DNA of 61,638 nucleotides, from NCBI GenBank assembly GCA_030524715.1, contig JAUNGB010000021.1:1-61638 (forward strand), given 5' to 3'. Positions 28,828-52,331 of this stretch are shown in pieces; position 1 is the first letter of the stretch; each line of letters begins with the position of its first letter. Under the pieces are notes generated by a model. The model was not told the DNA's origin, searched no databases, and saw only the letters and a program-made list of their open reading frames with translations. The position numbers were made by a program, and so were the translations under genes. The stretch is from Eubacteriales bacterium (lineage in GTDB: Bacteria > Bacillota > Clostridia > Lachnospirales > Lachnospiraceae).

Positions 28828-28856
28828 TTGTACCCTTATACCAGATATGGTATACT
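28828..28856 (+). promoter_or_regulatory. Promoter of the nine-gene helicase/kinase operon, with operator-like dyad
   Basis: TTGTAC (28828-28833) and TATACT (28851-28856) are 17 bp apart. The dyad TACCA-GATA-TGGTA lies inside the spacer and touches the -10 box, where a repressor could block RNA polymerase. Confidence 0.72.
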
Positions 28857-28896
28857 AAAGAAAATTATTTAATATTTACTTTTTGAGGTGACAAAC

Positions 28897-31800
28897 GTGG
28901 AAGAAATGGTGTTGTTAAAATATGAAAGAGGGTCAGAAATGGCCGTTGTAGCCTGTAGAAAGTGCGCAAGAATCAGTGAACAGGTTTTAAAGAATCCTTA
29001 TTCACCGTTGGTAAAAACAGAATTTGTTAGTACTCATACTTGTCCTGTATGTGGTGAGGTTTATGAGTCATGTACTATAAGTGATGCGGAGAATTTTCAT
29101 GCTGATTTTGAAAGATATAATAATGATCCGGCAAAATACAATAATGCTGTAAAGGATAGCTATACCCAAAAACAAGAAACAGATAGAAAACAACTTACTC
29201 AAACAACACTATTTAAAACTGATTCGGATAATAATTCTATAAACGATGTTGAGCAGATAGAAAATTTCATTTCTGTTCTTCAACAAGTATCTATTTCAAG
29301 ATCATTAACTGTGTCAGGGATTCCAACAGAGAAGATATCTCCAATAGAAGAGCTGGATAGAAAGATTGCTCATTGGAAACAAGAACTGTTGAGCACTGAT
29401 AAGAAAAACAAGATGATTAATTATCGTGAAACCAAGCGTAAAACGTTAAAAATTTTTGAGCCGAGTGCAGAAGAATTGTTTAATCAGCTTGCAGTTTCTG
29501 AGAAAACATTAACTTTTCAGAAACCAATTAGTAAGGAATCCGATATTCGTACCTATTCGTTATTGTCGCTGCTGGAAACACTTTCGTATACCTTGCCGGT
29601 TACAAAAGGTGATATTAAAACTGAAGGAACAATTGTAGAAAGAGAGCGTACACTAAAAAATCTCAGATCACAAGCGAAACTGGCACAAGAAGAGCAAGGT
29701 ACCAATATTTTGTATTTGTGTTTTGGGTTTATCTATTGGAGAGAGCATAATCGCGGGAATTCTCCGTGGATTAAATCGCCGCTTTTAATGATGCCCGTGA
29801 CTCTTGGGTTGAAATCATTAAACGCACCGTATACTCTGACAAAGGGCGATGATGAAATTGAGGTAAATCCAACTCTCGATTATCTTTTTAATGCGGAATA
29901 TAATATTGATCTTCCGACTTTTGAACTTAAAAATAAGAGTTCTTTTGGGGAATATCTTAGAGTAATAGAGGAAATTGTAGATCGGCGCGGTTGGAAAGTT
30001 GTACCGGAAGTAAGCCTTGGTTTGTTATCTTTCTTAAAAATCAGTATGTATCATGATTTGAATGATAATCGTGAATTGTTGATTAATAACCCGATTCTTC
30101 GTGCTATGGCAGGAGACAGAACTGCAATAGGCAATCTTCCAGCGGATATTGCAAATTATGACTTTGATAAAGCAAACCCGGAAGAATGGCATGAAGTCGT
30201 AAATTCTGACTCAAGCCAGAAAGAAGCAATTCTTTTGTCAAAGATGGGAGTAAGTTTTGTAATGCAAGGTCCTCCTGGAACCGGTAAGAGTCAGACCATT
30301 ACTAATATTATTGCGGAGGCGTTGGCAGACGGTAAGAAAGTATTGTTTGTATCTGAAAAAGCAGCAGCTCTTCAAGTTGTTTTAAAACGGTTGACAGAAG
30401 TGGGGCTTGATGATTTCTGTCTCTCTTTGCATAATTATAAGGCGAACAAGAAGGAGATTATAGACAGTATTGGCGCGAATCTTAATTTGCAGCGCGAATA
30501 CGTAGGAAATTCTGTATTGAGAGAGCTTACAGAATTGTTCAATGACAGGCAATACCTGAATAAGTACGCAGATGAATTACATCAGCCAATTGCACCGCTT
30601 GGCGATAGTATTTATATGGCCTTTGGTAAATTGACAAAAATGGAGAATGCATCTGTTGTAGAATTTTCATTAGAGAAACCGACGGAAATAACTAAGGAAC
30701 AGTATGCATTTTTACTTTACAATGTAACTGCTTTTGAAAAAGCGCTGCAGAACATAGACAGTCCTTTAACAAAGAATCCTTGGTATGGCACCAAGGCTAC
30801 TTCTTCTGACCAAAATTATAAGCAAGAATTAATGCATTCTACCGGCAATCTTGTTAATGGGTTACGTGAATTAGACAATTTTGCGAATACGCTGAATAAA
30901 GTTTTTCATTTAGCGTTTGATCATACTTGGAATGGAATGCAATCCGGTGTTAACGAAATCAATAAAGTATTGGATTTGCCTATGTTTACACCAGATTGGA
31001 TGGATGCGGCAAAGCGTATCGAAATGATTGCTGTTGCTAAATATGAGGAACAGGAACAAAAGAAGTACTATGCTGCTTGTGATACTTTTAGAGATATTTA
31101 TGATGAGTCTGTACTGGAAGCGCCTGTTAACGATTGGGTTGAAAGAATAAATGCTGCAAGTGACGGGTTGAATAGACTTGGATTCGGAAATGATTCTCAG
31201 ACAGCATTTTATTCTAAAGTAATTAATGCAAAAGAGTCTATAAAGAGTTTTGCTGAACGATTAAAAATATTTGTGGAGCAATATCGTTGGGCAAACAGTT
31301 TTGCAGGAATAGGTGAAAATGATACATTTGCAAATGCAGAAACATTATATGCTGTTTTAAAAGCGTTAAATAATAACAATAAGTATGTCAACGATATTTG
31401 GTTTGATGATAAAATCATGAGAAAGGTTGATGTTCAGCTTTCAAAAGCCTCTGGACGAGCAAGTTCTCTTAAAAATATGGAAGCATTAGTCAGTGAAAAA
31501 TGGCACGAAGGCGTGTATGAAATTGATGCGTCTACTATTTCTGAAATTTTTTGTGAAGGCTATTCTTGGATTTATCAACGTGAAGGGGAGGTTGAGGATT
31601 TATTAGAAAGAGAGATTGCTAAGGCGGAGTTATTGCTGAAGGATATTAAGGGATTATTAGCTGCTCAGATGGAAGCATATGCTCTTTTGCATTATTCGGA
31701 TGTGGATAGTGCGGAGAATATGATGATGCTTTGCAGTGTACTTACGTTAATTGCAGATGTTCCATATATGCAGGCAGATTGGTTTGACGCGAGAAAGAAC

Positions 31801-34800
31801 GCAGAAATTATGCCCGTAATTGAGGAAGCTGTTAAAGTAAATGCTTCTATTAATGAGAAAACGGCAGCTATTTTGGATGAGTGGGAACCATCTGCACTTT
31901 CTATTGATGCAGATGGGATGCTTGGACGATTTAAAACGGAATATGTTGGCTTTTTCCGAAAAATGAAAGCTGGATATAAGGAAGATATAAAAACGATTCG
32001 CTTGCATTATAAATCAGTAGGAAAATCTATAGAAGAAGATCATGTGATTGATTTTCTACAAAGAGTTAAAAGATTAAATGAAGAAAAGAAATGGTTCGAA
32101 GAGCATTCTGCACGATTAATGTCTGCAATAGGAAATAGATATAAAGGGCTGGATACAGACTGGAGTTCAGTTCAGCACTCCATACAGATCGCACTACAAA
32201 TTGCAGGCAAGTTTCCATATGGAAATATACCGGATGAGACGATCCGTGCAATTATATCTATTACAGAGAGTTTACAATTGACAGGAGATGCAAAACGTCT
32301 TGCGGATGAGTTGTCTTTAACAAAAATTACAAAGTGTGTTACTGATATAAATTCAAATAAAGTATTGAATGGATTTAAACATGGAGATTCTTTAAGGAAT
32401 CAGGTTATTCCTGTGGTGGAAGAATTTATCAAAAACAGTAATCAGCAGCTCGCTTATATTCAACAATTAAAAAAGACAAAAAAGAATACTTCATTGACAT
32501 ATGACGAAACTATGGAATTATTAAAACAACTTATTTCTGTAAATGAAGAAAAGGAGTGGTTTAAAGAAAATGAAAGTTTAAATCAGGAATTGTTCGGTAA
32601 GTTGAATGCTAATGAAAATTCGGATTGGAATGCTATTTTGGAAGGGCTTAATCTGGTTGGCCGGATTAAGAAATTATTCGTAAATGGTTTTGTTCCGGAA
32701 AAAACGATTGATTATATTTGCTGTTTAGATAAGAGAGAAGCGGACGCGCTGCAGCGTGTTCAGATGCTTTCAGCGGAATCAATAAAGGAACTTCGTGGAT
32801 TTATTCAAAATATAGCACCTCATCTGAATCGGGACGATGTGCCTGTAGAGGATATTATTCTGAACAGTCTACAAGAATATACTTCGATTGGAGATGTCTT
32901 GGAATCTGTTATTACGGCGGCAAATAGGTACAGTACATCAGGCAATCCTACAGCAGAAGTTCATTGCTTAAAGCTCATTAACGCTTGCAAAGCAAGAAAG
33001 CTCCGTGGCGAAATCTTATCAAGGTATGCAAAGAATTCTGAATTGTTAGGAAGCAGATTTATTGGTATCGATACAGAATGGGAAGTGATCGAAAAAGATT
33101 TAGAAACAGTCGAGAATTTCAATAATACGGTTCGTACAGTGGTAACAGACGAATCGGTTAGAAAGATATGCAATAGCAGAGAATATCGTGATGAACTAAG
33201 AAATCAGCTTATCAGATTAGAAGACCTTGTTTCTGTAGTTGGACCAGAAATTGAATATTTCCAAAAACAGTTTAATGGCTCGGATTTTGTCTCTGAAAAC
33301 ATGCTGGCTGTTGTCACTAGATATGAGGCCTGCCTGAATGGGTTTGGTGAACTGGATAAATGGTTGGATTATGTCGAGACACGAGCAGAGTGTGATAAAA
33401 GCGGACTCGCTGATTTTACTGCAAAGATTGTCGCAGAAGATAATTCTATAAAGGATATATGTGCGGCATTTGAGAGAGGCTTTTATTACCAGTGGATTGG
33501 GTTAGTGATAGATAGGGTTCCATCTGTTCAATCTTTCCGTAGACGTGTTCATGAACAGAGGATCGAGAGATTTATTTCAATGGATGAAAAACAGTTTGAA
33601 CTCTCTCGGAAACGTATACGAAAGAGAATAATCAGCACCTATCCAAAAACAGACCAAATGGCAGGAGCTGGTTCGGAAATTGGTATTCTGCGTCATGAAA
33701 TGGAAAAGAAACGTCGCATTATGCCTTTAAGAAAACTTTTTAAGTCAATTCCTAATTTGTTATTGACCTTGAAACCTTGTTTAATGATGTCACCCCTTTC
33801 CGTGGCATATTTCTTGGAGGCCGGATTGTACAAGTTTGACATGGTCATTTTTGACGAGGCATCGCAGATATTTCCGCAAGATGCAATCGGTGCGATATTC
33901 CGTGCGAAACAAGTAGTAATTGCCGGAGATACAAAGCAGTTGCCCCCAACAAACTTTTTTACATCAAATACCGGGAACAATGACGAAGAATATGACGATG
34001 ATGATAGCTCTAATGATGAAATTTTTGATTCTATTCTTGAGGAAACTGCAAATATTTTGCCGAATAGAACATTACTTTGGCATTATAGAAGTAAGCATGA
34101 ACATTTGATTGCTTTTTCTAATAAGGAGATTTACAAGAATGAGTTGGTTACTTTCCCAAGCAGTAACGAGAGGGAAAAGGATACGGGCGTTGAGTTTGTA
34201 TATGTTGAAGACGGATATTATGAGGGTGGTGGCCGCAATTGCAATAAACTTGAAGCGAAACGTTGTGTAGAGCTTATAAAAGAACATATTGATAGGCATC
34301 CTGATCGCTCGCTTGGAATTATTGCCTTTAGTGAAAAACAGCAAAATGCTATTATTTTTGAAATTGACCAGTTCAGAAAAAATAATCCGGAATATGAATC
34401 GTTTTTTGCAGAAGGAAAGGAGGACGAATTTTTTGTTAAAAATCTCGAAAATGTTCAGGGTGATGAGAGAGATACAATATTCTTTAGCGTGGGATATGGA
34501 AAAACAAAAGAGCAAAAAGCAAATAATAAACCGATGGCAATGTGTTTTGGCCCTCTTGGTAATCCAGGCGGTGAAAGACGTTTAAATGTTGCGATTACAC
34601 GTGCCAGAAGAAATATTAAACTTGTCAGTTCAATTTTGCCTTCAGATATTGATCTTAGTAGAACTGAATCTGAGGGTATCCGTATGCTTAGAGCTTACAT
34701 TGAATTTGCAATGAAGGGAGAAGTGGCATTGGCTTCTACCCGTATAACAGCAAAGCCTGATGAATTTGTTGATGCAGTTGCAGATTTTCTTCGTAACAGA

Positions 34801-35826
34801 GGATATAAAATTAAGCAGTTTATCGGATGTTCTGGCTATAAAATTGATATTGCGGTTGAGCATCCTTCAGAGGTTGTTCAGCAATTCGCAGCGGGTATCG
34901 AATGTGACGGCTTTTCTTACGTATCGGCAAGAACGGCCAGAGATCGTGACAGGCTTAGAAGAACTGTTCTTAATAACATGGGATGGAATATGTATCGAGT
35001 GTGGTCTGCTGAATGGTTTAAAAATCCGGAGATTGAGGGTGAAAAGCTTATTGCATTTATAGAGTCAGCAATTGAGGAGTGCGACAAAAAAGTAAAGGCA
35101 ATGGAGTTAGAAAAGCGTAAAGCAGAAGAAGCTCGTAAGAGAGTAGAAGAAGATAGGAGGAGAGAACAGGAGCGCAAGAAAGCAGAACAAGAAGCGGCCG
35201 AGCGTAAGCGTATTGAGGAAGTGGCACGTAAGGAAGCAGAAGCTAAAGCTGCAAAAGAAGCAAAACGTAGACTGGAAGTTCAACGTAAAGCTGATGAGGA
35301 ACGGGCTAGAAGAGAAGTTTTAAGAAGGCAATGGGAAGAAGAACGCAAACAGAAAGAAGCAGAGAGACATGCTAAAATGCAAAAAGTAGATGTTTCATGG
35401 GTGAAAAAAGATGAACTTGTCATTCATAAATCTTATGGGATTGGTAAAGTCAATAAAATAAAAGATGGCTATATCCATATTACTTTTTCTGACGGTGAAA
35501 AAGAATTTGTATTTCCAGATGCTTTTGAGAAAGGTTTTTTATCAAAACCAACAAGTAACAATAATGTAAATCGTAGTAATGTGAAATCTGTTTCAAAGAT
35601 TGGAGCATCCAAAACTCCAAGTGAACTGATAGAAAAATTAAAAGAAAAGCAGTTTACATGTATTGATAATAGAATGACTTCCGGAATTCTTTGGGTACTA
35701 TATTCAGTAGATAAGAAAGCAGTTTTTGAAGATATTATTGCTGGATATGATGTTTCCTATAAGCTTGAAAGACGTGGTGCTGTTGCAACCAGAAATATTC
35801 CGGCATGGAGAATAATGTTTAATTAA
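28897..35826 (+). CDS. Giant DUF4011-type superfamily-1 helicase with Vsr/MTES_1575-like nuclease domain
   Basis: The 2309-residue protein starts with a CxxC...CPVC zinc ribbon (residues ~20-55). A DUF4011-like part follows near 155 (LDRKIAHWKQELLSTDKKNKMINYR is its core). The helicase has Walker A QGPPGTGKSQT near 455, a long helical insert, Walker B IFDEASQIFPQDA near 1650 and the C-terminal NVAITRARRNIKLVSS near 1898. A PD-(D/E)XK nuclease of Vsr/DUF559/MTES_1575 kind follows (IDIAV, then GIECDG near 2001). Then come a charged coiled coil (~2065-2165) and a small KOW/tudor-like domain. GTG 28897 is preferred because GAGGTG is six bases upstream. Similar helicase-nucleases are antiphage effectors. 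Confidence 0.9.
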   Translation: MEEMVLLKYERGSEMAVVACRKCARISEQVLKNPYSPLVKTEFVSTHTCPVCGEVYESCTISDAENFHADFERYNNDPAKYNNAVKDSYTQKQETDRKQLTQTTLFKTDSDNNSINDVEQIENFISVLQQVSISRSLTVSGIPTEKISPIEELDRKIAHWKQELLSTDKKNKMINYRETKRKTLKIFEPSAEELFNQLAVSEKTLTFQKPISKESDIRTYSLLSLLETLSYTLPVTKGDIKTEGTIVERERTLKNLRSQAKLAQEEQGTNILYLCFGFIYWREHNRGNSPWIKSPLLMMPVTLGLKSLNAPYTLTKGDDEIEVNPTLDYLFNAEYNIDLPTFELKNKSSFGEYLRVIEEIVDRRGWKVVPEVSLGLLSFLKISMYHDLNDNRELLINNPILRAMAGDRTAIGNLPADIANYDFDKANPEEWHEVVNSDSSQKEAILLSKMGVSFVMQGPPGTGKSQTITNIIAEALADGKKVLFVSEKAAALQVVLKRLTEVGLDDFCLSLHNYKANKKEIIDSIGANLNLQREYVGNSVLRELTELFNDRQYLNKYADELHQPIAPLGDSIYMAFGKLTKMENASVVEFSLEKPTEITKEQYAFLLYNVTAFEKALQNIDSPLTKNPWYGTKATSSDQNYKQELMHSTGNLVNGLRELDNFANTLNKVFHLAFDHTWNGMQSGVNEINKVLDLPMFTPDWMDAAKRIEMIAVAKYEEQEQKKYYAACDTFRDIYDESVLEAPVNDWVERINAASDGLNRLGFGNDSQTAFYSKVINAKESIKSFAERLKIFVEQYRWANSFAGIGENDTFANAETLYAVLKALNNNNKYVNDIWFDDKIMRKVDVQLSKASGRASSLKNMEALVSEKWHEGVYEIDASTISEIFCEGYSWIYQREGEVEDLLEREIAKAELLLKDIKGLLAAQMEAYALLHYSDVDSAENMMMLCSVLTLIADVPYMQADWFDARKNAEIMPVIEEAVKVNASINEKTAAILDEWEPSALSIDADGMLGRFKTEYVGFFRKMKAGYKEDIKTIRLHYKSVGKSIEEDHVIDFLQRVKRLNEEKKWFEEHSARLMSAIGNRYKGLDTDWSSVQHSIQIALQIAGKFPYGNIPDETIRAIISITESLQLTGDAKRLADELSLTKITKCVTDINSNKVLNGFKHGDSLRNQVIPVVEEFIKNSNQQLAYIQQLKKTKKNTSLTYDETMELLKQLISVNEEKEWFKENESLNQELFGKLNANENSDWNAILEGLNLVGRIKKLFVNGFVPEKTIDYICCLDKREADALQRVQMLSAESIKELRGFIQNIAPHLNRDDVPVEDIILNSLQEYTSIGDVLESVITAANRYSTSGNPTAEVHCLKLINACKARKLRGEILSRYAKNSELLGSRFIGIDTEWEVIEKDLETVENFNNTVRTVVTDESVRKICNSREYRDELRNQLIRLEDLVSVVGPEIEYFQKQFNGSDFVSENMLAVVTRYEACLNGFGELDKWLDYVETRAECDKSGLADFTAKIVAEDNSIKDICAAFERGFYYQWIGLVIDRVPSVQSFRRRVHEQRIERFISMDEKQFELSRKRIRKRIISTYPKTDQMAGAGSEIGILRHEMEKKRRIMPLRKLFKSIPNLLLTLKPCLMMSPLSVAYFLEAGLYKFDMVIFDEASQIFPQDAIGAIFRAKQVVIAGDTKQLPPTNFFTSNTGNNDEEYDDDDSSNDEIFDSILEETANILPNRTLLWHYRSKHEHLIAFSNKEIYKNELVTFPSSNEREKDTGVEFVYVEDGYYEGGGRNCNKLEAKRCVELIKEHIDRHPDRSLGIIAFSEKQQNAIIFEIDQFRKNNPEYESFFAEGKEDEFFVKNLENVQGDERDTIFFSVGYGKTKEQKANNKPMAMCFGPLGNPGGERRLNVAITRARRNIKLVSSILPSDIDLSRTESEGIRMLRAYIEFAMKGEVALASTRITAKPDEFVDAVADFLRNRGYKIKQFIGCSGYKIDIAVEHPSEVVQQFAAGIECDGFSYVSARTARDRDRLRRTVLNNMGWNMYRVWSAEWFKNPEIEGEKLIAFIESAIEECDKKVKAMELEKRKAEEARKRVEEDRRREQERKKAEQEAAERKRIEEVARKEAEAKAAKEAKRRLEVQRKADEERARREVLRRQWEEERKQKEAERHAKMQKVDVSWVKKDELVIHKSYGIGKVNKIKDGYIHITFSDGEKEFVFPDAFEKGFLSKPTSNNNVNRSNVKSVSKIGASKTPSELIEKLKEKQFTCIDNRMTSGILWVLYSVDKKAVFEDIIAGYDVSYKLERRGAVATRNIPAWRIMFN

Positions 35827-35846
35827 AATTAAAATGGGGGTATATT

Positions 35847-36089
35847 GTGGCTGGAAAAGAATTGAAATATGAGATTATTAATCAGATCGGCGTAATTTCT
35901 ACTTCGTCAAGTGGCTGGAATACAGAACTTAATCGAGTTAGCTGGAACGGAAATGAACCAAAGTATGATTTGAGATCTTGGTCTTCGGATCATATTAAGA
36001 TGGGAAAGGGAATTACTATTTCAGAAGAAGAATTGATTGTACTTGCAAAATTGTTAGAAAAAGAGTTGGGATTTTTAAAAAAAGATTAG
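35847..36089 (+). CDS. PC4/YdbC-family single-stranded DNA-binding protein
   Basis: An 80-residue protein of the YdbC/PC4 type: a short four-strand beta sheet with basic/aromatic residues (SGWNTELNRVSWNG, KYDLRSWSSDHIKMGKGI) followed by a C-terminal helix (SEEELIVLAKLLEKELG). These proteins bind single-stranded DNA or RNA as dimers. The GTG start has GGGGG seven bases upstream. It lies 20 bp after the helicase gene, so it probably assists it on unwound DNA. Confidence 0.82.
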   Translation: MAGKELKYEIINQIGVISTSSSGWNTELNRVSWNGNEPKYDLRSWSSDHIKMGKGITISEEELIVLAKLLEKELGFLKKD

Positions 36090-36120
36090 TTCCAAAGAGT
36101 AACATAAGGAGGGGCAAGCC

Positions 36121-37812
36121 GTGGATAATAGAACAGTTATTAATCCTGCTTTGCAGCAGTCGGCTCAGACTGTAATAAATAATGAGATTATTGAAGAATA
36201 TAATCGTCAGAACAATATTGACATTTCTATGACTACCCTGGTACGGGAAGGTGCAACGATCTTGGAAAAATATGTAGTTACAAGTCGTTTAGAAGTAGCT
36301 TCCGGAGAAGCAGACTTGTATCTTTGCAAATATAACCATGGGGATTATGTTGCAAAAATTTATAAGCGTCAGTTCGCAATTAAACAGGAAGTAGTAAACG
36401 CCCTTCTGAAGATTGACTCTCCTTATGTGGCAAAACTTCATGAAACAGGAACTTATAACGGTTATCCTGTTGAAATTTTGCCGTATTATGAAAATGGAAG
36501 TCTTCAAGGAAAGACTTTTTCTGAAGATGAATTAGTAAAACGGATTATTCCGAATATTAATGAAGGTCTCCATGCAATTCATGAAGCTGGTATTATTCAT
36601 AAAGATTTAAAGCCATCCAATATTATGTTAAACAGTGATGGTGAAACGGTTTCAATCATTGATTTTGGAATTAGTTCGGCAGTAGAAGGTAATAAAACCA
36701 TTCTGGTAACTAAGACTGGTATGACTCCTGAGTATTCGGCACCAGAAACTTTCAAGAATATTTTTTATGAAGGTTCTGATTATTATTCATTTGGAATTAC
36801 ATTATTTGAACTGTTCTGCGGTTATACTCCATATGCCAATATGCAGCCAGAAGAAATTGAACAGTTTGTATCTGTACAAAGAATACCTTTTCCAGAAGAA
36901 ATGTCTGCATTGTTGCAGGATTTTATATCTGCACTTACATACTATGATATCAGTTTCAGGAAAAATAAAAACAATCCAAACCGACGTTGGACATACGAGG
37001 AAGTTTGTAAATGGTTAAATGGAGAGCCGCTTGTGATTCCAGGAGAAGGTGTTGGAAATATTGGTAAAGGTGCAATGCCGGCTTATCAATTTCTTGGAGA
37101 ATCATATACAGATCCGGCGCTTCTTGTTGCAGCATTTGCGAAAAATTGGGAGGATGGAAAGAAACAGTTATTTAGAGGGTATATTACGGCGCATTTTCGT
37201 ACATATAATCAGGATATTGCAAGAAAATGTCAGGCGGCTGAAGAAGAAGCAGGCAGAGAAAATGGAAGAGATGATATTATCTTTTGGAAATTACTCTATC
37301 AAATCAATCCAAAATTGAAGGGCTTCTATTGGAAAGGGTATACATATGAAAGTATTCCTGCTTTTGGACGAGATGTTTTAGAGAAGCTTTGGGATCGAGA
37401 TCATTCTCAATTTCCTTATTATGCAAGTATATTGGAGGAAAAGCTTCTGACACAATATGTACTTCATGCTCAGCCTAAGAATGAAAAACTCAAAAATGCT
37501 GCTGCTGCTATTGAAGATTCATACGAATTAGAAAAAAACAACGGAACAGACATGCGCAGGACATATTACTTAATGGCATATACATTATCTGGTCAAAAAC
37601 TTTTGTTGTTAGATGGAGAACAATTCCGCACAGTTGGAGAACTTGTTGGTTATATGAGAACGATTCTTGAAGAGTCATACGATAGATTTGAGTCTTTGTG
37701 CCATCGACTTGTTGACTATGATGGAAACTTGGATTTTCAGCTTGAAACATGGCTTATGGCTATTGGAAAGCAGAAAGAGCTTGAAGCATGGCGGACTTCT
37801 ATGAACGAGTAA
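36121..37812 (+). CDS. Hanks-type Ser/Thr protein kinase
   Basis: A 563-residue cytoplasmic kinase. The kinase domain occupies roughly residues 45-310. The ATP-lysine is probably in DYVAKIYKRQ, the catalytic loop is IIHKDLKPSNIML near 158, DFG is near 180 and the activation segment includes TPEYSAPE. The residue before the catalytic Asp is Lys rather than Arg, so it is of the non-RD type. No membrane segment or PASTA repeats are present, unlike PrkC. The C-terminal ~250 residues are a helical region I do not recognise. GTG start behind AAGGAGGGG. Confidence 0.93.
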   Translation: MDNRTVINPALQQSAQTVINNEIIEEYNRQNNIDISMTTLVREGATILEKYVVTSRLEVASGEADLYLCKYNHGDYVAKIYKRQFAIKQEVVNALLKIDSPYVAKLHETGTYNGYPVEILPYYENGSLQGKTFSEDELVKRIIPNINEGLHAIHEAGIIHKDLKPSNIMLNSDGETVSIIDFGISSAVEGNKTILVTKTGMTPEYSAPETFKNIFYEGSDYYSFGITLFELFCGYTPYANMQPEEIEQFVSVQRIPFPEEMSALLQDFISALTYYDISFRKNKNNPNRRWTYEEVCKWLNGEPLVIPGEGVGNIGKGAMPAYQFLGESYTDPALLVAAFAKNWEDGKKQLFRGYITAHFRTYNQDIARKCQAAEEEAGRENGRDDIIFWKLLYQINPKLKGFYWKGYTYESIPAFGRDVLEKLWDRDHSQFPYYASILEEKLLTQYVLHAQPKNEKLKNAAAAIEDSYELEKNNGTDMRRTYYLMAYTLSGQKLLLLDGEQFRTVGELVGYMRTILEESYDRFESLCHRLVDYDGNLDFQLETWLMAIGKQKELEAWRTSMNE

Positions 37813-37827
37813 GGGAGGAAGGTTGAA

Positions 37828-39288
37828 ATGAGCGGTCCTAAAATATCGGTATATTCGTTAACAGGACATGCAAGAGCTATTGTAATGGGACAAATACGGT
37901 GTGAACAACAATCTCTTGCATGTGCTGAACAAACACGGGAAATTCTTCATGGTTTGCAGACTTTTTCCGGGGATTTTGAACGTGAAGTTGCGAATATTCA
38001 ACTCCTTATGAGACGTACAGCAGAAGGAGCTGATCAGATAGAAAAACTCCGGCAATTAAAAGAAAAACTTTCAAAAGAAGCTACAGCAATTCAGGAGGAA
38101 TTGAAGAATCATATGCCTCATGCCTCACAGAAATATCGAATTAGTGAAGAAGCATATGCAGAAAAACAGGCTGAATTAAAAATATTACAGGCAATCCGAA
38201 AAAGAGCAGAGACATTGCAGGGGGAGTTGAATGCAGTTTTTTCTCAGGATAAGAAGAATACATTGAACATTCAAGCCAGCATACTGAATGATTTAGGTAT
38301 GGCAGAAGGAGTTGAAAAAGAAACACAGACATTAGATTTTATGATGCGTGATAAAACACAGAACATTGAACGTATCCAAGCGAGTATTATTGATGATATC
38401 AGTGGAATATATTCCTTTGATCTCTCGGAGGAAGTACAGGTAGAGCAAGTTACGTCATTAGAAAATAAAAAAGCGGATCTTTCATTGAAATTAGTTTCAT
38501 TGCTTAATGATAATGTTCTTCCAGATAATATTGTGGTTGAAATTCAACAAGCTGAAAAATATCTTCAAAAAATATCAAACATTCAATATTTGAGTACATT
38601 TGAAGCAGTTACTCTGAGTAGATTAAAACAAAGAATTGCTGATTATAATGAAGAGCGAAATAAGTACAAAAAAGAATTTGATAATTTACGTGCAAGATAT
38701 AAAGCATTATGCAATATGGAAGAGGAAATTGCAAAAGAATATGATTTTACAGAAGAATCTTTGAATATTTTGAATACAGAAATTATACGTCTTGAACATT
38801 CACTTATTAAACAGCGGGAACAGGAATATATTAATGAATGTGTCAATGAGGTTATGACCGAAATGGGATATGATCTTATTGGAGAGCGTTCTGTGAAAAA
38901 GCGTAGTGGTAAGAGATTCAAAAATGAATTATTTACTTTTCATGAAGGAACAGCGGTAAATGTAACGTATTCTTCAGAAGGACAGATATCAATGGAATTG
39001 GGGAGGATTTCAAGAGAGGATCGAATTCCAAATTCGGAAGAATGTGAGATGTTAACCAGGGATATGGAGTCGTTCTGCAGTGAATTTACAGAATTTGAAA
39101 ATCGATTACGAGCAAAAGGAGTAGTGGTGAATAATCGTATTGCGTTGTATCCCCCTTCGGCTGAATATGCTGCAATTATCAATGTCTCAGACTATGATGT
39201 GGTAGAAGGAGCGCAGATTACTGAGATAAAATCTGTTGAGCGAAAAAAGAAAATTGTGGAGAAAAAGGTTATCCGGAGGAATGAATAA
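37828..39288 (+). CDS. Coiled-coil protein of the kinase operon, function unknown
   Basis: A 486-residue protein dominated by long Glu/Lys/Gln-rich helices (roughly residues 30-340) that should form coiled coils. The N-terminus (SGPKISVYSLTGHARA) and the last ~130 residues look globular (MTEMGYDLIGERSVKKRSGK ... FTFHEGTAVNVTYSSEGQISM). No membrane segment or catalytic motif is seen. It lies 15 bp after the kinase gene behind GGGAGGAAGG and overlaps the FHA gene by one base. It may be a kinase substrate or scaffold. Confidence 0.85.
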   Translation: MSGPKISVYSLTGHARAIVMGQIRCEQQSLACAEQTREILHGLQTFSGDFEREVANIQLLMRRTAEGADQIEKLRQLKEKLSKEATAIQEELKNHMPHASQKYRISEEAYAEKQAELKILQAIRKRAETLQGELNAVFSQDKKNTLNIQASILNDLGMAEGVEKETQTLDFMMRDKTQNIERIQASIIDDISGIYSFDLSEEVQVEQVTSLENKKADLSLKLVSLLNDNVLPDNIVVEIQQAEKYLQKISNIQYLSTFEAVTLSRLKQRIADYNEERNKYKKEFDNLRARYKALCNMEEEIAKEYDFTEESLNILNTEIIRLEHSLIKQREQEYINECVNEVMTEMGYDLIGERSVKKRSGKRFKNELFTFHEGTAVNVTYSSEGQISMELGRISREDRIPNSEECEMLTRDMESFCSEFTEFENRLRAKGVVVNNRIALYPPSAEYAAIINVSDYDVVEGAQITEIKSVERKKKIVEKKVIRRNE

Positions 39289-39926
39289 TGGAATTAAAAA
39301 AATATAAAGTGTGTCCGTCATGCGGAGAACATAATAAGCCGACTTCATTGGAGTGTAGAAAATGTGAAACGGATTTGACAGGTGTTCGTGTTGTTGATAG
39401 CGAAATTGAGCAACGCAAATTGGAAAAAGAGAACGCTGGGGGGAAACCAACAGATTCTGATGCAGGGAATGACATTCAATTGGTACGTGTCTGTGAAGAA
39501 TGCGGTGCTGAAAATGCTCCGCAGGCAAGAAAATGTAAACAGTGTGGAGAAGAAATATCTGATATATTACCAACACCTGTACTAAAAAGGGAAGAACCAA
39601 TATTTTCTTTTGAACTTAAATCTGTAGACGGAATTTTTAGTACGAAAATTTATAAAACACTATCTATAATCGGACGTGAAGCTGATTTGAAAGAATATCT
39701 TGGCACTAAGGCATATGTCAGTAGGCAGCATGCAGAACTCACTGTTGTTGCAGGTAAAGTGTTTATCAAGAATTTAAGCGGCACAAATAAAACATTTGTT
39801 AATAATGAAGAGATTTCAAATGATGAACCACATGTGTTAGCAAATGGTGATGAGATTGGTTTGGGCGGAAAGGTTATTGCAGATGAAAGACAGGATAATG
39901 CTGCATATTTTCTGTTTCAGGGATAA
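39288..39926 (+). CDS. Double zinc-ribbon and FHA-domain protein
   Basis: FHA domains bind phosphothreonine, so this 212-residue protein is a likely reader of the operon's kinase. Two zinc ribbons lie at the N-terminus (CPSCGEHN ... CRKCETD, residues ~7-26; CEECGAEN ... CKQCGEE, ~68-87). The FHA domain begins near residue 105, with the binding marks IIGRE near 125, SRQHAEL near 144 and LSGTNKTFVNN near 163. Its ATG overlaps the preceding stop codon (TAATG), which implies tight coupling. Confidence 0.92.
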   Translation: MELKKYKVCPSCGEHNKPTSLECRKCETDLTGVRVVDSEIEQRKLEKENAGGKPTDSDAGNDIQLVRVCEECGAENAPQARKCKQCGEEISDILPTPVLKREEPIFSFELKSVDGIFSTKIYKTLSIIGREADLKEYLGTKAYVSRQHAELTVVAGKVFIKNLSGTNKTFVNNEEISNDEPHVLANGDEIGLGGKVIADERQDNAAYFLFQG

Positions 39927-39928
39927 TT

Positions 39929-40552
39929 ATGAATGTAGCAAGATTATTATATCCAGTTAAAGTTCTGGGGCCGGGAAACCGTGTCGGGATATGGTTATGT
40001 GGATGTCATAGAAGGTGCAAGGGGTGCAGTAATCCGGAACTATGGGCAGAAAAAAAGGAATACGAAATAACTATTCCACAATTATTAGAACTAATTAAAA
40101 AAATAAATACAGAACACGATATAGATGGTTTTACGATTAGTGGCGGAGAACCGATGAATCAAGCTTTTGAACTGTCGATACTAGTGGATGAATTAAAATT
40201 AATATCAAAGGATATTCTGGTTTATTCAGGATACCGACTGGAAGAACTGGTCAATCGTGATTCTCAAACACAACATATACTCGATACAATTGCTGTTTTG
40301 ATTGATGGAGTTTACATTGAAGAAAATAACGATGGAAGTTTATTGAGAGGATCATCAAATCAAAGAATTCATATGCTGAATTGCGAATTGGAGTCGTTGT
40401 ATAAAGATTATTTAAGTAAAACAAAAAATCAGATACAAAACTTTACAACAGTGGATGGAATTGTTTCAGTAGGAATACATAGGAAGGGGTTTACCCCCTT
40501 AAAGGGAGAATGGCTATGGCAGACTATATTGCAAAATGGCACAAAGAAATAG
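39929..40552 (+). CDS. Radical-SAM protein of NrdG/activase type
   Basis: The 207-residue protein carries the [4Fe-4S] radical-SAM motif C26-X3-C30-X2-C33 (CHRRCKGC) and the SAM-binding FTISGGEPMNQ. The preceding GPGNRVGIWLCG is typical of small glycyl-radical activases such as NrdG and of single-cluster relatives. No glycyl-radical enzyme is encoded in the window, so the substrate is open: it may modify an operon partner or make a small molecule. It is two bases after the FHA gene, and its 3' end overlaps the AAA+ gene by 37 bp. Confidence 0.88.
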   Translation: MNVARLLYPVKVLGPGNRVGIWLCGCHRRCKGCSNPELWAEKKEYEITIPQLLELIKKINTEHDIDGFTISGGEPMNQAFELSILVDELKLISKDILVYSGYRLEELVNRDSQTQHILDTIAVLIDGVYIEENNDGSLLRGSSNQRIHMLNCELESLYKDYLSKTKNQIQNFTTVDGIVSVGIHRKGFTPLKGEWLWQTILQNGTKK

Positions 40553-42396
40553 GGATATTTTGTAGAATCAAACCTATGATTATCGTTGAAGGAAATGTTC
40601 TGGACGTATATCAATATCCAGAAGAAGGCAGTATTTCTAAAGGAAGCATTCTGCGTCTTCCGGAATATTTGCACTATTATTTTACTGACTTAGGATACAA
40701 GACAATCGTATTCTTTGATAGTATGCAGGGATTCTATAATACTTGTGAGGATGGCCATATTGAATCATTTGCTCAGATGACGAAAACAAGAATGGAAGGA
40801 CAGAATGTTCGAAGTGAGTTCAAAGGTAAAAGTAATTCGGCAACATCACTTGTGCGAACTGCTGTAAGTCAGAATAAAGTGCCTGTAGCAATAGTTATGA
40901 ATTTGGCATCGCGTTACATTACATCGCCAGATAATGTGGATCAGTCAGAAGTAGACAGTTTTACTAATTTGTTGATTGCTTCTATGGAAGGAAAAGATGT
41001 TCGTACCGATAATGGAATACTTAAAAATATTGTCATTATGATTGTAAATAAAGTAAACGATGTTCCTGCATGGTTTTATTTGGATAATCAAAACGTAAAA
41101 ACAATTAATATAGGGACTCCTTCTAAAGAAGAACGTGAAGCCCTGATTAAAGGGGAAAATTTTGAATCATTTTTTGCCGCAGAAGTTTTCGAAGAAGATT
41201 ATCCTTATTATGAAGAACATCCGGATGAATTAGAAAAAATACAGGATAAATTCGTAGGTTTAACAGATGGGTTCAGTTTTACGGAAATCAATGGATTACG
41301 TAGATTGTGCAAGAACGGACGGACCAGAATTCATAAAATGTCATCGGTGATTGACTTGTATAGATATGGAATTAAAGATAATCCTTGGGATGCGCTGGAT
41401 GTTAATGAACTAAAAAATGCAAAAGAAGATTTTCAAAAGCGTGTAAAAGGACAGGATTTTGCAATCATCAAAACTTTAGACGTTATTAAGAGAGCAGTAA
41501 CCGGAATGGCAGGACTCAGTAGTTCTTCTCATGCAAAGCCCAAGGGAATTTTGTTTTTTGCAGGACCTACAGGTACTGGTAAAACGGAAACTGCTAAAAC
41601 TTTAGCGGAGAAGCTTTTCGGAGATGAAAGTCGTTGTATTCGTTTTGACATGAGTGAGTTCAGCCAGTCTCACAGCGATCAGAAATTACTTGGAGCGCCT
41701 CCAGGATATGTAGGATACGAAGCAGGTGGTCAGCTTACTAACGCAGTAAAAGAGAATCCATTTTCCATTTTATTATTTGATGAAATCGAGAAAGCTCATC
41801 CATCTATATTTGATAAATTTTTGCAGATTTTAGAAGACGGCAGAATGACAGATGGTCAGGGAAATACAGTTTATTTTTCTGAATGTATTATTATCTTTAC
41901 CAGTAATCTGGGAATTTATACAAAAAATGATTATGGACGACGTGAAGCAAATGTTACACCGGATATGGAATTTTCTGAAGTGCAAAAGCGAGTTCGTCAG
42001 GCAATTGAGGATTACTTCAAGATAGAACTTGGCCGTCCGGAGATTTTGAATCGTATTGGAGAAAACATAGTTGTTTTCGATTTTATCAGACCAGAAGTTG
42101 CAAAACTTATTTTGGATACGCAGGTTAACAAGATTATCGAAAATCTTATGATAGAAAAGGGCATTGAGCTTATCGTTTCTGAAAAAGTAATGTCCATTCT
42201 TTTAACAAAAGCTGTTGATAATTTGGGTAATGGTGGTCGTGGAATCGGCAATATTGTTGAGAGTTTGCTGATTAATCCGCTTGCACGGTACATGTTTGAC
42301 GAGGATATTAGAAACAATGTAAAAATAGTAATAGAGGATATTGATGCAGAAAATATGCCATATGCATTGAACTGCAGGAAAGAGGCAGGGTCATGA
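40516..42396 (+). CDS. ClpB/ClpA-like AAA+ ATPase
   Basis: A 626-residue ATPase whose C-terminal half is a ClpB-D2-like AAA+ module: Walker A GPTGTGKTETAK near 350, DMSEFSQSHSDQKLLGAPPGYVGY, Walker B ILLFDEIEKAH near 420, sensor IIFTSNLG and arginine finger region RPEILNRIGE. The N-terminal ~290 residues replace the Clp N-domain/D1 and show a degenerate, Walker-less ATPase-like pattern. GYVG points to threading of protein substrates. ATG 40516 has GGGAG at good distance; ATG 40510 is the alternative. Its stop overlaps the phosphatase start (ATGA). Confidence 0.92.
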   Translation: MADYIAKWHKEIGIFCRIKPMIIVEGNVLDVYQYPEEGSISKGSILRLPEYLHYYFTDLGYKTIVFFDSMQGFYNTCEDGHIESFAQMTKTRMEGQNVRSEFKGKSNSATSLVRTAVSQNKVPVAIVMNLASRYITSPDNVDQSEVDSFTNLLIASMEGKDVRTDNGILKNIVIMIVNKVNDVPAWFYLDNQNVKTINIGTPSKEEREALIKGENFESFFAAEVFEEDYPYYEEHPDELEKIQDKFVGLTDGFSFTEINGLRRLCKNGRTRIHKMSSVIDLYRYGIKDNPWDALDVNELKNAKEDFQKRVKGQDFAIIKTLDVIKRAVTGMAGLSSSSHAKPKGILFFAGPTGTGKTETAKTLAEKLFGDESRCIRFDMSEFSQSHSDQKLLGAPPGYVGYEAGGQLTNAVKENPFSILLFDEIEKAHPSIFDKFLQILEDGRMTDGQGNTVYFSECIIIFTSNLGIYTKNDYGRREANVTPDMEFSEVQKRVRQAIEDYFKIELGRPEILNRIGENIVVFDFIRPEVAKLILDTQVNKIIENLMIEKGIELIVSEKVMSILLTKAVDNLGNGGRGIGNIVESLLINPLARYMFDEDIRNNVKIVIEDIDAENMPYALNCRKEAGS

Positions 42397-43130
42397 TTTA
42401 TATTGATACTCGAAAAGGACTATACCATAAGATAAGTGAAGATACAGTTTTAGTTGGAGATATAATTCTATCCGATGAAAACAATGTATTACCTGTTCCG
42501 AAAAAAGGGTTTGTTTGTGTTGCTGATGGGGTAGGCGGAAATAACGGCGGTGCAGATGCATCTGCTTTTGTTTTGAAAGCGTTGTTGCAGAGTAATGCTG
42601 TAGAAAATCCGGATGAATTAAAAAATAAGTTGATCGAAATTGATTCGCTTTTAATTGAAAAAGGTAAAGCAAATACATCCATTGCAACAATGGCTACTAC
42701 CTTAACAGGTGTTTTTTTGTCCGATGTATTGAATGTTATAATGCATATAGGCAATACGCGAGCTTATGTGATGCAAGGAAGCTATTTGAAACAGATAACT
42801 CAAGACCATACGGTATATAATTGGCTCAGGAGCATGGGGAGATATGTTGAAGCTGACGCTTGTAACAAAAATCAAATTACGAATTGCTTTGGAGGGGGAG
42901 ATTTGTCTCTTCTTTCAAAGCTATATGTGATGGAAATCCCTCGTTTTAACAAATTGCTGCTAACATCTGATGGAGTGCACGAGTATGTAGATATTGATTT
43001 ATTGGAAGAGGTTTTAAATGATTCTATTATCTCGAATGAGATGAAATGTGATCGCATTATTAATGCGGCAAAAGAAGCTGGATCAGAAGATGATATCACT
43101 GTTGTTCTGATTCAAAGGGAGGAAGAGTAA
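42393..43130 (+). CDS. PP2C-family Ser/Thr protein phosphatase
   Basis: The 245-residue enzyme should reverse the operon kinase. Metal-binding PP2C motifs are in place: FVCVADGVGGNNGG near residue 41, MATTLTGVFL, HIGNTRAYV near 120, LLTSDGVHEYVD near 190 and EDDITVVLI near the C-terminus. It is soluble. Its ATG overlaps the AAA+ stop codon, so its translation is coupled to that gene. Kinase, FHA reader and phosphatase in one transcript form a closed phosphorylation circuit. Confidence 0.93.
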   Translation: MIYIDTRKGLYHKISEDTVLVGDIILSDENNVLPVPKKGFVCVADGVGGNNGGADASAFVLKALLQSNAVENPDELKNKLIEIDSLLIEKGKANTSIATMATTLTGVFLSDVLNVIMHIGNTRAYVMQGSYLKQITQDHTVYNWLRSMGRYVEADACNKNQITNCFGGGDLSLLSKLYVMEIPRFNKLLLTSDGVHEYVDIDLLEEVLNDSIISNEMKCDRIINAAKEAGSEDDITVVLIQREEE

Positions 43131-43198
43131 CGTGGATCTTCAGATTAATGCGAACGCAGGAATTTAAAGATTTAGCTATATAATTAAGAGACGATGAT

Positions 43199-44101
43199 AT
43201 GAATAATTTGGTTGAGTATTGTTATAAAATGAATATGTCTTATTCTTACAAACCGGTTCTTATTATGGCATTAGTGGAATATGATGGGAAAATACATATT
43301 TCAGATGCTGTTAATTACTTTGTACAATTCTATGCTAAGCGTTTGTCATGGGGATTGATTGCTGAAAGATCAAATTCAATTTACAGCAATCTGAATTGTA
43401 GCCTTGAACAAATTGCGGCTAATATAAAAAATAATCCGGTGAAAGCACTACTTAATAGTGAGTTTTTTGAATATGACAAAAAACAGGAAATAATGTATGT
43501 TAAGCCATATGTCTGGGAAAGTTTGACACAGACAGAAAAGAAGAAAATTATGGATGCATGTAGTAGACGTTTGGATGAATATTATATTAAGATTGCCAAT
43601 CAACCTATGCAAGAGATAGTGTGTTTTCACAAACCAGATGAAGAAAATGGATATCTCAGTAATTGGTATTTATCTGAGTTTTTTGTTCAAGGTGAACGGT
43701 TTTCATCTATTAAACAATATATGGTGTACCAAAAAGCGTTGCAGTTTAATGATTTTAGTGCAAGAGATAATATTCTTATAACTAATGATGCAGCGGCAAT
43801 AAAACAAATAGAGCGTGAGGTTAGGAATTGCAACGAAAGAGTCTGGAAGGGTAAAAGTCAATTAATTGTATATCAGGGATTACTTTCAAAATTTTCTCAG
43901 AACGATGAGTTAAAAGATAAACTATTAGATACTGGGTCTGCAATGTTGGCTGAATGTTCTGTATCAGATCGAATATGGGGGATTGGAATTTCCATGAAGG
44001 ATGACAGGCGCTATTTAATTGATCAATGGGAAGGGCAAAATTTATTGGGATTTTCCTTAATGCAGGTAAGAAATATTTTATATGAGACAAGGAGTCTGTA
44101 G
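43199..44101 (+). CDS. NADAR-domain protein with N-terminal winged-helix-like domain
   Basis: The 300-residue protein has a C-terminal NADAR (YbiA-like) domain from ~150 to the end: YLSNWYLSEFFVQGERFSSI, a variable middle, NERVWKGKSQLIVYQGLL, KFSQNDELKDKLLDTGSAML, IWGIGISMKDD and LLGFSLMQVRNIL. NADAR enzymes act on ADP-ribose linked to bases or N-glycosidic derivatives. The first ~130 residues (SYKPVLIMALVEYDGKIHI ... FYAKR) resemble the winged-helix segment at the start of some restriction-type proteins. It is last in the operon, 68 bp after the phosphatase, with a weak AAGAG site. Confidence 0.85.
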   Translation: MNNLVEYCYKMNMSYSYKPVLIMALVEYDGKIHISDAVNYFVQFYAKRLSWGLIAERSNSIYSNLNCSLEQIAANIKNNPVKALLNSEFFEYDKKQEIMYVKPYVWESLTQTEKKKIMDACSRRLDEYYIKIANQPMQEIVCFHKPDEENGYLSNWYLSEFFVQGERFSSIKQYMVYQKALQFNDFSARDNILITNDAAAIKQIEREVRNCNERVWKGKSQLIVYQGLLSKFSQNDELKDKLLDTGSAMLAECSVSDRIWGIGISMKDDRRYLIDQWEGQNLLGFSLMQVRNILYETRSL

Positions 44102-51941: not shown

Positions 51942-52095
51942 TCATAACAGATCAGAATATATTTCAAAGCATTATCGCACTTATGAATGGTGCCCCAGCC
52001 ATCCAATGACTGGGGCTTAAGTGTGTTATCTATAAAGAGATATCTGAACTGATTCGTTTCTTCCTAAAATCAAGGCTTCCCGGACAAAAAAATAA

Positions 52096-52179
52096 TGCAG
52101 GAGATGGGACTTGAACCCACACGATCTTGCGACCACAGGCACCTGAAGCCTGCGCGTCTGCCAATTCCGCCACTCCTGC
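52096..52179 (-). tRNA. tRNA-Leu (anticodon CAG)
   Basis: Reading the minus strand gives an 84-nt class II tRNA. The acceptor stem is GCAGGAG/CTCCTGC with discriminator A, the anticodon loop TTCAGGT carries CAG, there is a variable arm around GGTCGCAAGATC, and the T loop contains GGTTCAAGTCC. CCA is not encoded. Its 3' end faces the accessory region to the left, a usual arrangement for integration at tRNA genes. Confidence 0.97.
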
Positions 52180-52331
52180 ATTTCTTATTTATCAATCGCT
52201 CTCTCGCGACTGCTTTATTATAATACCGCACCTTTGAAGAAATGTCAATAGCAAAAATACAAAAAAATTAAAAAAATTTTGAATATAAAGAATTTTGGCG
52301 AAAACAGAAAAAATTTTTGCCCCGGAATTTA

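Follow-up and report, generated by a model that had tools for sequence, protein, structure and literature searches.

Organization of the operon

The DNA analyzed here (the window) is a stretch of 61,638 nucleotides from a bacterium of the Eubacteriales, family Lachnospiraceae (contig JAUNGB010000021.1 of assembly GCA_030524715.1). Nine open reading frames (ORFs) on its + strand, from 28888 (or 28939) to 44101, form a putative operon encoding a helicase-nuclease, a protein kinase and phosphatase, a phosphothreonine reader, a radical S-adenosylmethionine (rSAM) enzyme, an AAA+ ATPase and three further proteins (Table 1). The intergenic gaps are, in gene order, 20, 31, 15, -1, 2, -37, -4 and 68 bp, in agreement with a preliminary description of this DNA that had reported same-strand genes at most 68 bp apart with some overlaps, and this spacing suggests that the nine genes may be co-transcribed. 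The domain identities proposed in that description were borne out by Pfam or NCBIfam matches for eight of the proteins, the coiled-coil protein having no family. AAA_11 and AAA_12 also match the helicase-nuclease, and the N-terminal part of the AAA+ ATPase is conserved but has no Pfam match. No glycyl-radical enzyme was present among the Pfam matches of the operon proteins. The single promoter proposed ahead of the operon can be read in the sequence, yet promoter-like matches in the region (66) were at the chance level given by shuffled sequences (57.7 +/- 7.7), and one promoter at this place is plausible but not above chance.

Table 1. Features of the operon and of its right-hand boundary (window positions).
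Feature	Position	Strand	Place in the unit	Basis
Possible weak promoter, TTGTAC-17-TATACT	28828..28856	+		Read from sequence
DUF4011 - SF1 helicase (AAA_11/AAA_12) - MTES_1575 PD-(D/E)XK nuclease; start GTG 28888 or ATG 28939	28888..35826	+		Pfam DUF4011 2.6e-30, MTES_1575 1.8e-30
PC4-type single-strand-DNA-binding protein, 80 aa	35847..36089	+	Accessory	Pfam PC4 6e-9
Ser/Thr protein kinase	36121..37812	+	Core	Pfam Pkinase 1.3e-31
MSGPK coiled-coil protein, 486 aa	37828..39288	+	Core	No Pfam/NCBIfam family
Double zinc ribbon - FHA phosphothreonine reader	39288..39926	+	Core	Pfam FHA 9.2e-15
NrdG-like radical SAM / 4Fe-4S enzyme	39929..40552	+	Core	Fer4_12 2.1e-31, radical SAM 8.8e-9
ClpB-like AAA+ ATPase	40516..42396	+	Core	AAA_2 1e-49, ClpB D2-small 4.9e-6
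PP2C phosphatase	42393..43130	+	Core	PP2C_2 9.4e-7; NCBIfam Stp1 PP2C 1.1e-35, under model cut-off
NADAR protein with conserved N-terminal domain of ~135 aa	43199..44101	+		NADAR 2.1e-42
tRNA-Leu (CAG)	52095..52180	-	Right boundary of insertion hotspot	ARAGORN

A six-gene core with exchangeable ends

Species genomes were scanned using the N-terminal region of the AAA+ ATPase as query, and the best 80 of 165 confirmed loci were retained. Their ORFs were searched with profiles seeded by the window proteins; NADAR and PC4 relatives, which gave too few matches for iteration, were counted by single-sequence phmmer at 1e-5. Many of these loci are metagenome-assembled and several are short, and loci "with room" are those having enough sequence on the relevant side.

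The rSAM gene was found in 48 of the 80 loci. All 48 kept the order helicase, kinase, coiled coil, FHA, rSAM, AAA+, PP2C for the genes present, not all six core genes occurring everywhere, with median gaps in the core of -4 to 21 bp. Among rSAM-bearing loci with room, FHA was present in 43/43, the kinase in 35/36, the coiled-coil protein in 37/39 and PP2C in 32/39, and the window has these six genes in the same order on one strand. On the other hand, the DUF4011 helicase occurred in 18 of 34 such loci, PC4 relatives in two (L013 and L015) and NADAR in none of the 80, 29 of the rSAM-bearing loci with PP2C having at least 1 kb beyond it. Thirty of the 32 loci lacking rSAM contained AAA+ alone of the set; one had in addition pieces of helicase and PP2C, and another pieces of the coiled-coil protein and PP2C. 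These results indicate that the unit is a six-gene core with exchangeable ends and not the fixed nine-gene system of the preliminary description: the six genes recur together in fixed order, but the nine do not. Named carriers are Desulfosporosinus sp. HMP52, Mediterraneibacter agrestimuris DSM 111629, Cuneatibacter caecimuris DSM 29486, Mitsuokella multacida DSM 20544 and Aristaeella lactis. The M. agrestimuris locus includes the helicase, whereas in C. caecimuris no helicase adjoins the kinase. Judged from sequence only, extra ORFs interrupt the set in some loci: membrane-like ones separate the kinase gene from that of the coiled coil, or AAA+ from PP2C, and a coiled-coil one separates rSAM from AAA+, as do LRR-like ORFs in the selenomonad loci L060, L062 and L083.

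Catalytic residues of the core signalling and motor proteins are intact in nearly all aligned members. The HRD Asp, DFG Asp and APE Glu of the kinase were kept in 36/36 sequences, the CX3CX2C motif of the rSAM enzyme in 49/49 and Walker A and B of the AAA+ ATPase in 76/76. In the FHA domain the G, R, R and N residues were kept in 45/45, S in 44/45 and H in 42/45, and the metal-binding Asp residues of PP2C in 33-34 of 34 with one gap. The D, E, C and D residues of the nuclease were kept in 15-16 of 16 aligned sequences, and the helicase Walker A in 11/16 with five gaps, in an alignment that contains many partial helicases.

The start of the coiled-coil protein is strongly conserved. M1, S2, G3 and K5 were invariant and P4 was kept in at least 90% of 51 chosen sequences, a set from which N-terminally cut matches had been omitted and in which three loci had been started at the MSGP methionine. 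Without such selection, SGPK was found in 38 of the 42 coiled-coil ORFs of L013-L092; the four without it are fragments (56-188 aa). In an AlphaFold2 model (mean predicted local distance difference test 77, predicted template modelling score 0.62) residues 5-11 form a strand. Ranges spanning residues 1 to 446 are among the structural matches; the model suggests that the N-terminal strand may join the C-terminal alpha/beta domain, the coiled coil being an insertion. Comparison of C-terminal domains by hhalign linked the protein to a 514-aa protein of L009-L011 (probability 62, E 7e-5) and to that of L008 (97.6), and gave weak results for the MSGPK protein of Rhizobium (25.6 over 18 columns) and for a Calothrix protein (19.7). 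The proteins of 370-380 aa encoded in the PIN-type loci on plasmids, described below, gave no link in this profile comparison. Kinship with DUF2997, suspected by eye, is not supported: profile comparison gave no link to DUF1257 or DUF2997. DUF2997 was found in 0 of 101 genomes of the phylum. In L009 the core and the 514-aa protein lie near ORFs that by eye resemble type III CRISPR subunits.

Relatives on plasmids

A survey of plasmids gave 21 AAA+ records, of which the 20 listed come from eight genera (six from Moellerella and seven from Rhizobium, several near-identical). The rSAM gene adjoins AAA+ in 19 of the 20, and in Geminocystis it lies about 9 kb off. A 44-kb plasmid of Aristaeella lactis has the same core as the window. 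In a Rhizobium leguminosarum plasmid (L094, 13467-19727) a single protein of 2086 aa combines the kinase with DUF4011, the SF1 helicase and the MTES_1575 nuclease, and adjoins AAA+, rSAM and a 452-aa MSGPK protein. This natural fusion argues that the helicase-nuclease is a direct partner of the phospho-switch. Together with the conserved linkage in the genome loci, it upholds the earlier proposal that the kinase/PP2C/FHA set is tied to the DUF4011 helicase-nuclease.

Plasmids of five genera of Pseudomonadota (Moellerella, Leisingera, Acinetobacter, Photobacterium and Polaromonas) carry another set, annotated as an AAA-domain helicase-like protein, a PIN protein, a hypothetical protein, AAA+ and rSAM, with no kinase, FHA or PP2C annotated beside it; the helicase and PIN assignments were confirmed by Pfam for Moellerella only. 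The Acinetobacter set (L101) is on plasmid pNDM1_010055. NrdG-like rSAM genes were also seen near other AAA genes (L100, L099 and L105), in Paenibacillus together with DUF1257/DUF2997 and in Treponema next to phage-baseplate-like genes.

Genomic setting and horizontal spread

The guanine plus cytosine (GC) content of the operon is 0.363, compared with 0.487 in the leftmost part of the window (1-12.4 kb) and 0.469 to the right of the tRNA gene. The carA region was compared in eight genomes taken from 40 of the same genus that were searched. In all eight, the match to the left part of the window stops at 10.4-13.4 kb and is followed by 0.6-8.0 kb of other sequence, and homology restarts at 52,065-52,089, at tRNA-Leu and carA. 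The intervening stretches of the eight relatives contained no match to the window longer than 80 bp, and the site lacked the operon in each. These results indicate that at least about 13.4-52.09 kb is a variable insertion hotspot at the 3' end of tRNA-Leu. Because the stretch at 20.0-28.7 kb has a GC content of 0.491, the variable region (low, high, low) is probably made up of several layers.

No match to the AAA+ gene at E <= 1e-120 was found in any of 60 relatives searched, 36 of them of the same genus, and it was matched in 9 of 398 genomes of the phylum, the window's own included. An AAA+ protein 89% identical to that of the window is labelled Segatella copri by its source, one such label being that of a metagenome-assembled genome. 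The operon is thus horizontally acquired and probably mobile, with a patchy distribution. A nucleotide search of Escherichia coli genomes with the AAA+/rSAM pair of Moellerella gave no hit spanning 80% of the pair; the 12 rows listed are Clp proteins. The hotspot (13400-52090) also contains a TnpB/OrfB IS605 gene and an ImmA/IrrE-type peptidase gene, and the NADAR gene is followed by a gene for a 1294-aa BspA-type LRR_5 protein (44816-48700).

Relation to known defence systems

At 1e-10, the flanks of core loci matched 38 PADLOC models (100 non-core ORFs sampled of 205 eligible) and those of rSAM-less AAA+ loci two (100 ORFs of 185); SduA, LmuA, RTasMBL, Avs1a and PDC-S02 were among the 25 core-flank models shown. 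This enrichment is a soft signal, since one ORF can match many models. Within the limits of models that describe single proteins, PADLOC, NCBIfam and Pfam gave no entry for the complete set, and the question raised by the preliminary description, whether the set is already catalogued as one named system, is answered accordingly for PADLOC and NCBIfam.

The nearest relatives of the DUF4011 helicase-nuclease are antiphage models. It scored 847.9 bits against Hhe (NCBIfam NF042953), the type named for such proteins in the preliminary description, below the curated cut-off of 2000 bits, and 1220.4 bits against ProA (NF058533), below the cut-off of 1500. Against the PADLOC candidate PDC-S37 it reached 1323 bits in four stretches, PADLOC's own threshold not being displayed. 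No explanation of ProA or PDC-S37 was found in the literature searched. All three are single-protein models, whereas the protein described here lies within a kinase/FHA/rSAM/AAA+/PP2C operon. The NADAR protein matched the PADLOC candidate PDC-M42C with 232 bits; this match and the relation of the helicase to Hhe and ProA favour a defence-like reading.

Mokosh systems join a Ser/Thr kinase and an SF1 helicase, with a PLD nuclease as partner or domain, and the MkoA models partially match both the kinase and the helicase of the window. Mokosh is not known to have an FHA, rSAM or AAA+ core, and no PLD nuclease match was found in the operon proteins. TerY-P systems have a vWA protein (TerY) beside a kinase and a PP2C phosphatase. 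The operon shares the latter two, but no vWA/TerY match was found in the eight proteins scanned with Pfam, consistent with the earlier statement that vWA/TerY genes are missing here, so it is not a TerY-P system. A kinase-kinase-phosphatase (KKP) module has been linked to phage defence (PMC11341870); the operon has one kinase, and no FHA/rSAM/AAA+ core is mentioned for KKP in the text of that source available to us. The NADAR protein resembles that of DarT1-NADAR (PMC11543638, as far as its text was available) in its domain and most pocket residues, and differs in its extra N-terminal domain and in the replacement, in the window and many relatives, of the ribose-binding Glu; no DarT ADP-ribosyltransferase match was found in the eight operon proteins scanned. 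The gene set was not found in the literature searched, which is no claim that it is unpublished, and the available parts of PMC7159879, PMC13092281, PMC9503650, PMC11833690, PMC11125620 and PMC11543638 do not describe it.

Putative exchangeable partners: NADAR and DUF4236 proteins

The best 120 of 625 protein-search matches were taken as NADAR relatives, and their linkage was assessed against the best 120 of 7999 AAA+ and the best 120 of 736 coiled-coil matches. Among P0241-P0295, nearly all of which have the N-terminal domain, 8 of the 23 on metagenome contigs (at least 5 kb) lay on one equal in size to an AAA+ or coiled-coil contig; for P0296-P0360, nearly all without the domain, the number was 0 of 17, and shifted sizes gave a mean of 0.15. 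This is indirect evidence that NADAR proteins with the N-terminal domain are linked to the core, as one variant. No confident Pfam family was found for that domain among 42 members.

Comparison with the solved NADARs 8bau and 2b3w aligned K172 of the window protein with the conserved ribose-binding glutamate and E252 with the second acidic residue; by our own matching of the numbering, these positions are E43 and E125 of PMC11543638 (E88 and D171 in E. coli C7). In 64 NADAR-only relatives E172 was kept in 64/64 and E252 in 63/64, with one gap. Among 55 fused NADARs, the window's included (58 aligned minus three NADAR-only fusions), both glutamates were kept in 27, both lost in 22 and one lost in six, of which the window protein is one. 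The latter keeps the pocket lysine, the second acidic residue and most other pocket residues. In the available part of PMC11543638, D171 and K95 are needed for hydrolysis by the E. coli C7 NADAR, and E88A is nearly active and E88Q inactive in vitro, neither rescuing from DarT1 in vivo. Since E88A kept most of its in vitro activity there, K172 is not proof of inactivity. Because the window NADAR has K at the ribose-binding position, its activity, and with it the nucleotide-level chemistry previously suggested as an output, is uncertain. The subgroup without both glutamates makes the stronger case for a non-catalytic role.

The gene directly after PP2C in 13 loci belongs to one blastp family, identified as DUF4236 by Pfam on one member. 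Of the loci with room, 11 of 13 with the helicase and 0 of 10 without it have a member of the blastp family (Fisher 6.7e-5, relatedness uncorrected); the DUF4236 profile adds the helicase-lacking L057, also after PP2C, giving 1/10 (Fisher 6.4e-4, likewise uncorrected). The DUF4236 protein tracks the helicase; it may be a second effector or an adaptor, and its gene lies where the window has NADAR. In rSAM-less loci (L064-L092 except L083) AAA+ is immediately followed by a gene that the same profile matches: 21 of 25 loci with room under a strict distance window, 23 of 25 when two larger overlaps are included. In L066 and L079 the protein of this gene lacks the DUF4236 start and matches through its remainder. 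The gene is perhaps a second conserved partner of AAA+.

Proposed mechanism and alternative explanations

We consider it an even call that the operon is a mobile defence-like system in which a six-gene phospho-regulated core serves exchangeable effectors. That kinase, FHA and PP2C genes are linked speaks for a reversible phosphothreonine switch. In such a system the helicase would engage foreign or damaged DNA, aided here by PC4 and perhaps by the NADAR protein, which would bind ADP-ribosylated nucleic acid. Next, the kinase would phosphorylate itself and/or the MSGPK coiled-coil protein, and the zinc-ribbon FHA protein would bind the phosphothreonine and dock the AAA+ motor, which may remodel or release the helicase-nuclease so that DNA is cut; PP2C would reset the switch and prevent self-harm. 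The rSAM gene stands beside AAA+ in most loci seen, and its product may serve to mature another protein, which most likely belongs to the AAA+/coiled-coil assembly.

Several points weigh against this interpretation. The role given to the rSAM enzyme is a guess. No relative was found in the viral contigs and phages searched, and there is no direct phage link. Neither the coiled-coil nor the FHA protein of the window matched a PADLOC model, and AAA+, kinase, PP2C and rSAM matched by general domains only. Many of the core-flank matches come from one family, PDC-S02, and the counts are of models, not distinct ORFs. Extra genes stretch gaps within the core up to 4953 bp. Finally, because the helicase is missing from 16 of the 34 rSAM-bearing loci with room, the core may be able to drive other outputs.

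It seems unlikely to us that the operon is a stress or DNA-repair module of TerY-P-like logic, acting under phospho-control on damaged chromosomal DNA and not against viruses. A kinase/PP2C/FHA/AAA+ set with a helicase-nuclease and a single-strand-DNA binder would fit it too, but the patchy distribution on islands and plasmids, the presence of the helicase in part of the loci only and the lack of a vWA match in the eight proteins scanned argue against it. Distinctly improbable, in our judgement, is that the AAA+/rSAM/coiled-coil trio is a protein-maturation machine with a job of its own, perhaps as in the AAA/DUF1257/DUF2997/rSAM cluster, with helicase, kinase and NADAR merely travelling along in loose linkage. 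The recurrence of the AAA+/rSAM pair on plasmids with no kinase, FHA or PP2C annotated beside it, the rSAM genes near other AAA families and the cores without helicase are consistent with such a machine, but the near-constant presence of kinase (35/36) and FHA (43/43) and the joining of kinase and helicase in Rhizobium are not. A toxin-antitoxin-like addiction unit in which NADAR reverses guanine ADP-ribosylation is very improbable: NADARs are antitoxins of DarT1, the window protein keeps the pocket lysine and second acidic residue, and E88A, a change at the position where the window has K, cost little activity in vitro, but E88 substitutions failed to rescue from DarT1 in vivo (PMC11543638, available part), the eight proteins scanned gave no ADP-ribosyltransferase match, both glutamates are lost in 22 of 55 fused NADARs, and NADAR is missing from 80/80 genome loci, 29 of them with room.

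Within the defence-like interpretation, a more specific and rather unlikely possibility is a new class of immune switch, in which the NrdG-like rSAM enzyme would modify the invariant MSGPK strand (or another partner) and so arm AAA+, with kinase, FHA and PP2C timing the release of an interchangeable helicase-nuclease. In its NADAR variant, a former ADP-ribosyl-guanine hydrolase would be becoming a reader of ADP-ribosylated nucleic acid that senses ADP-ribosyltransferase attack. The repeated loss of ribose-binding glutamates in fused NADARs makes NADAR, in this respect, a candidate sensor rather than eraser.

The six-gene core provides a search profile for loci that are not listed as a system in the catalogues searched. 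If the operon is indeed a defence system, it would represent an elaborate phospho-gated kind in which, across Bacillota and Pseudomonadota, a nuclease effector is linked with an rSAM enzyme and a ClpB-like motor.

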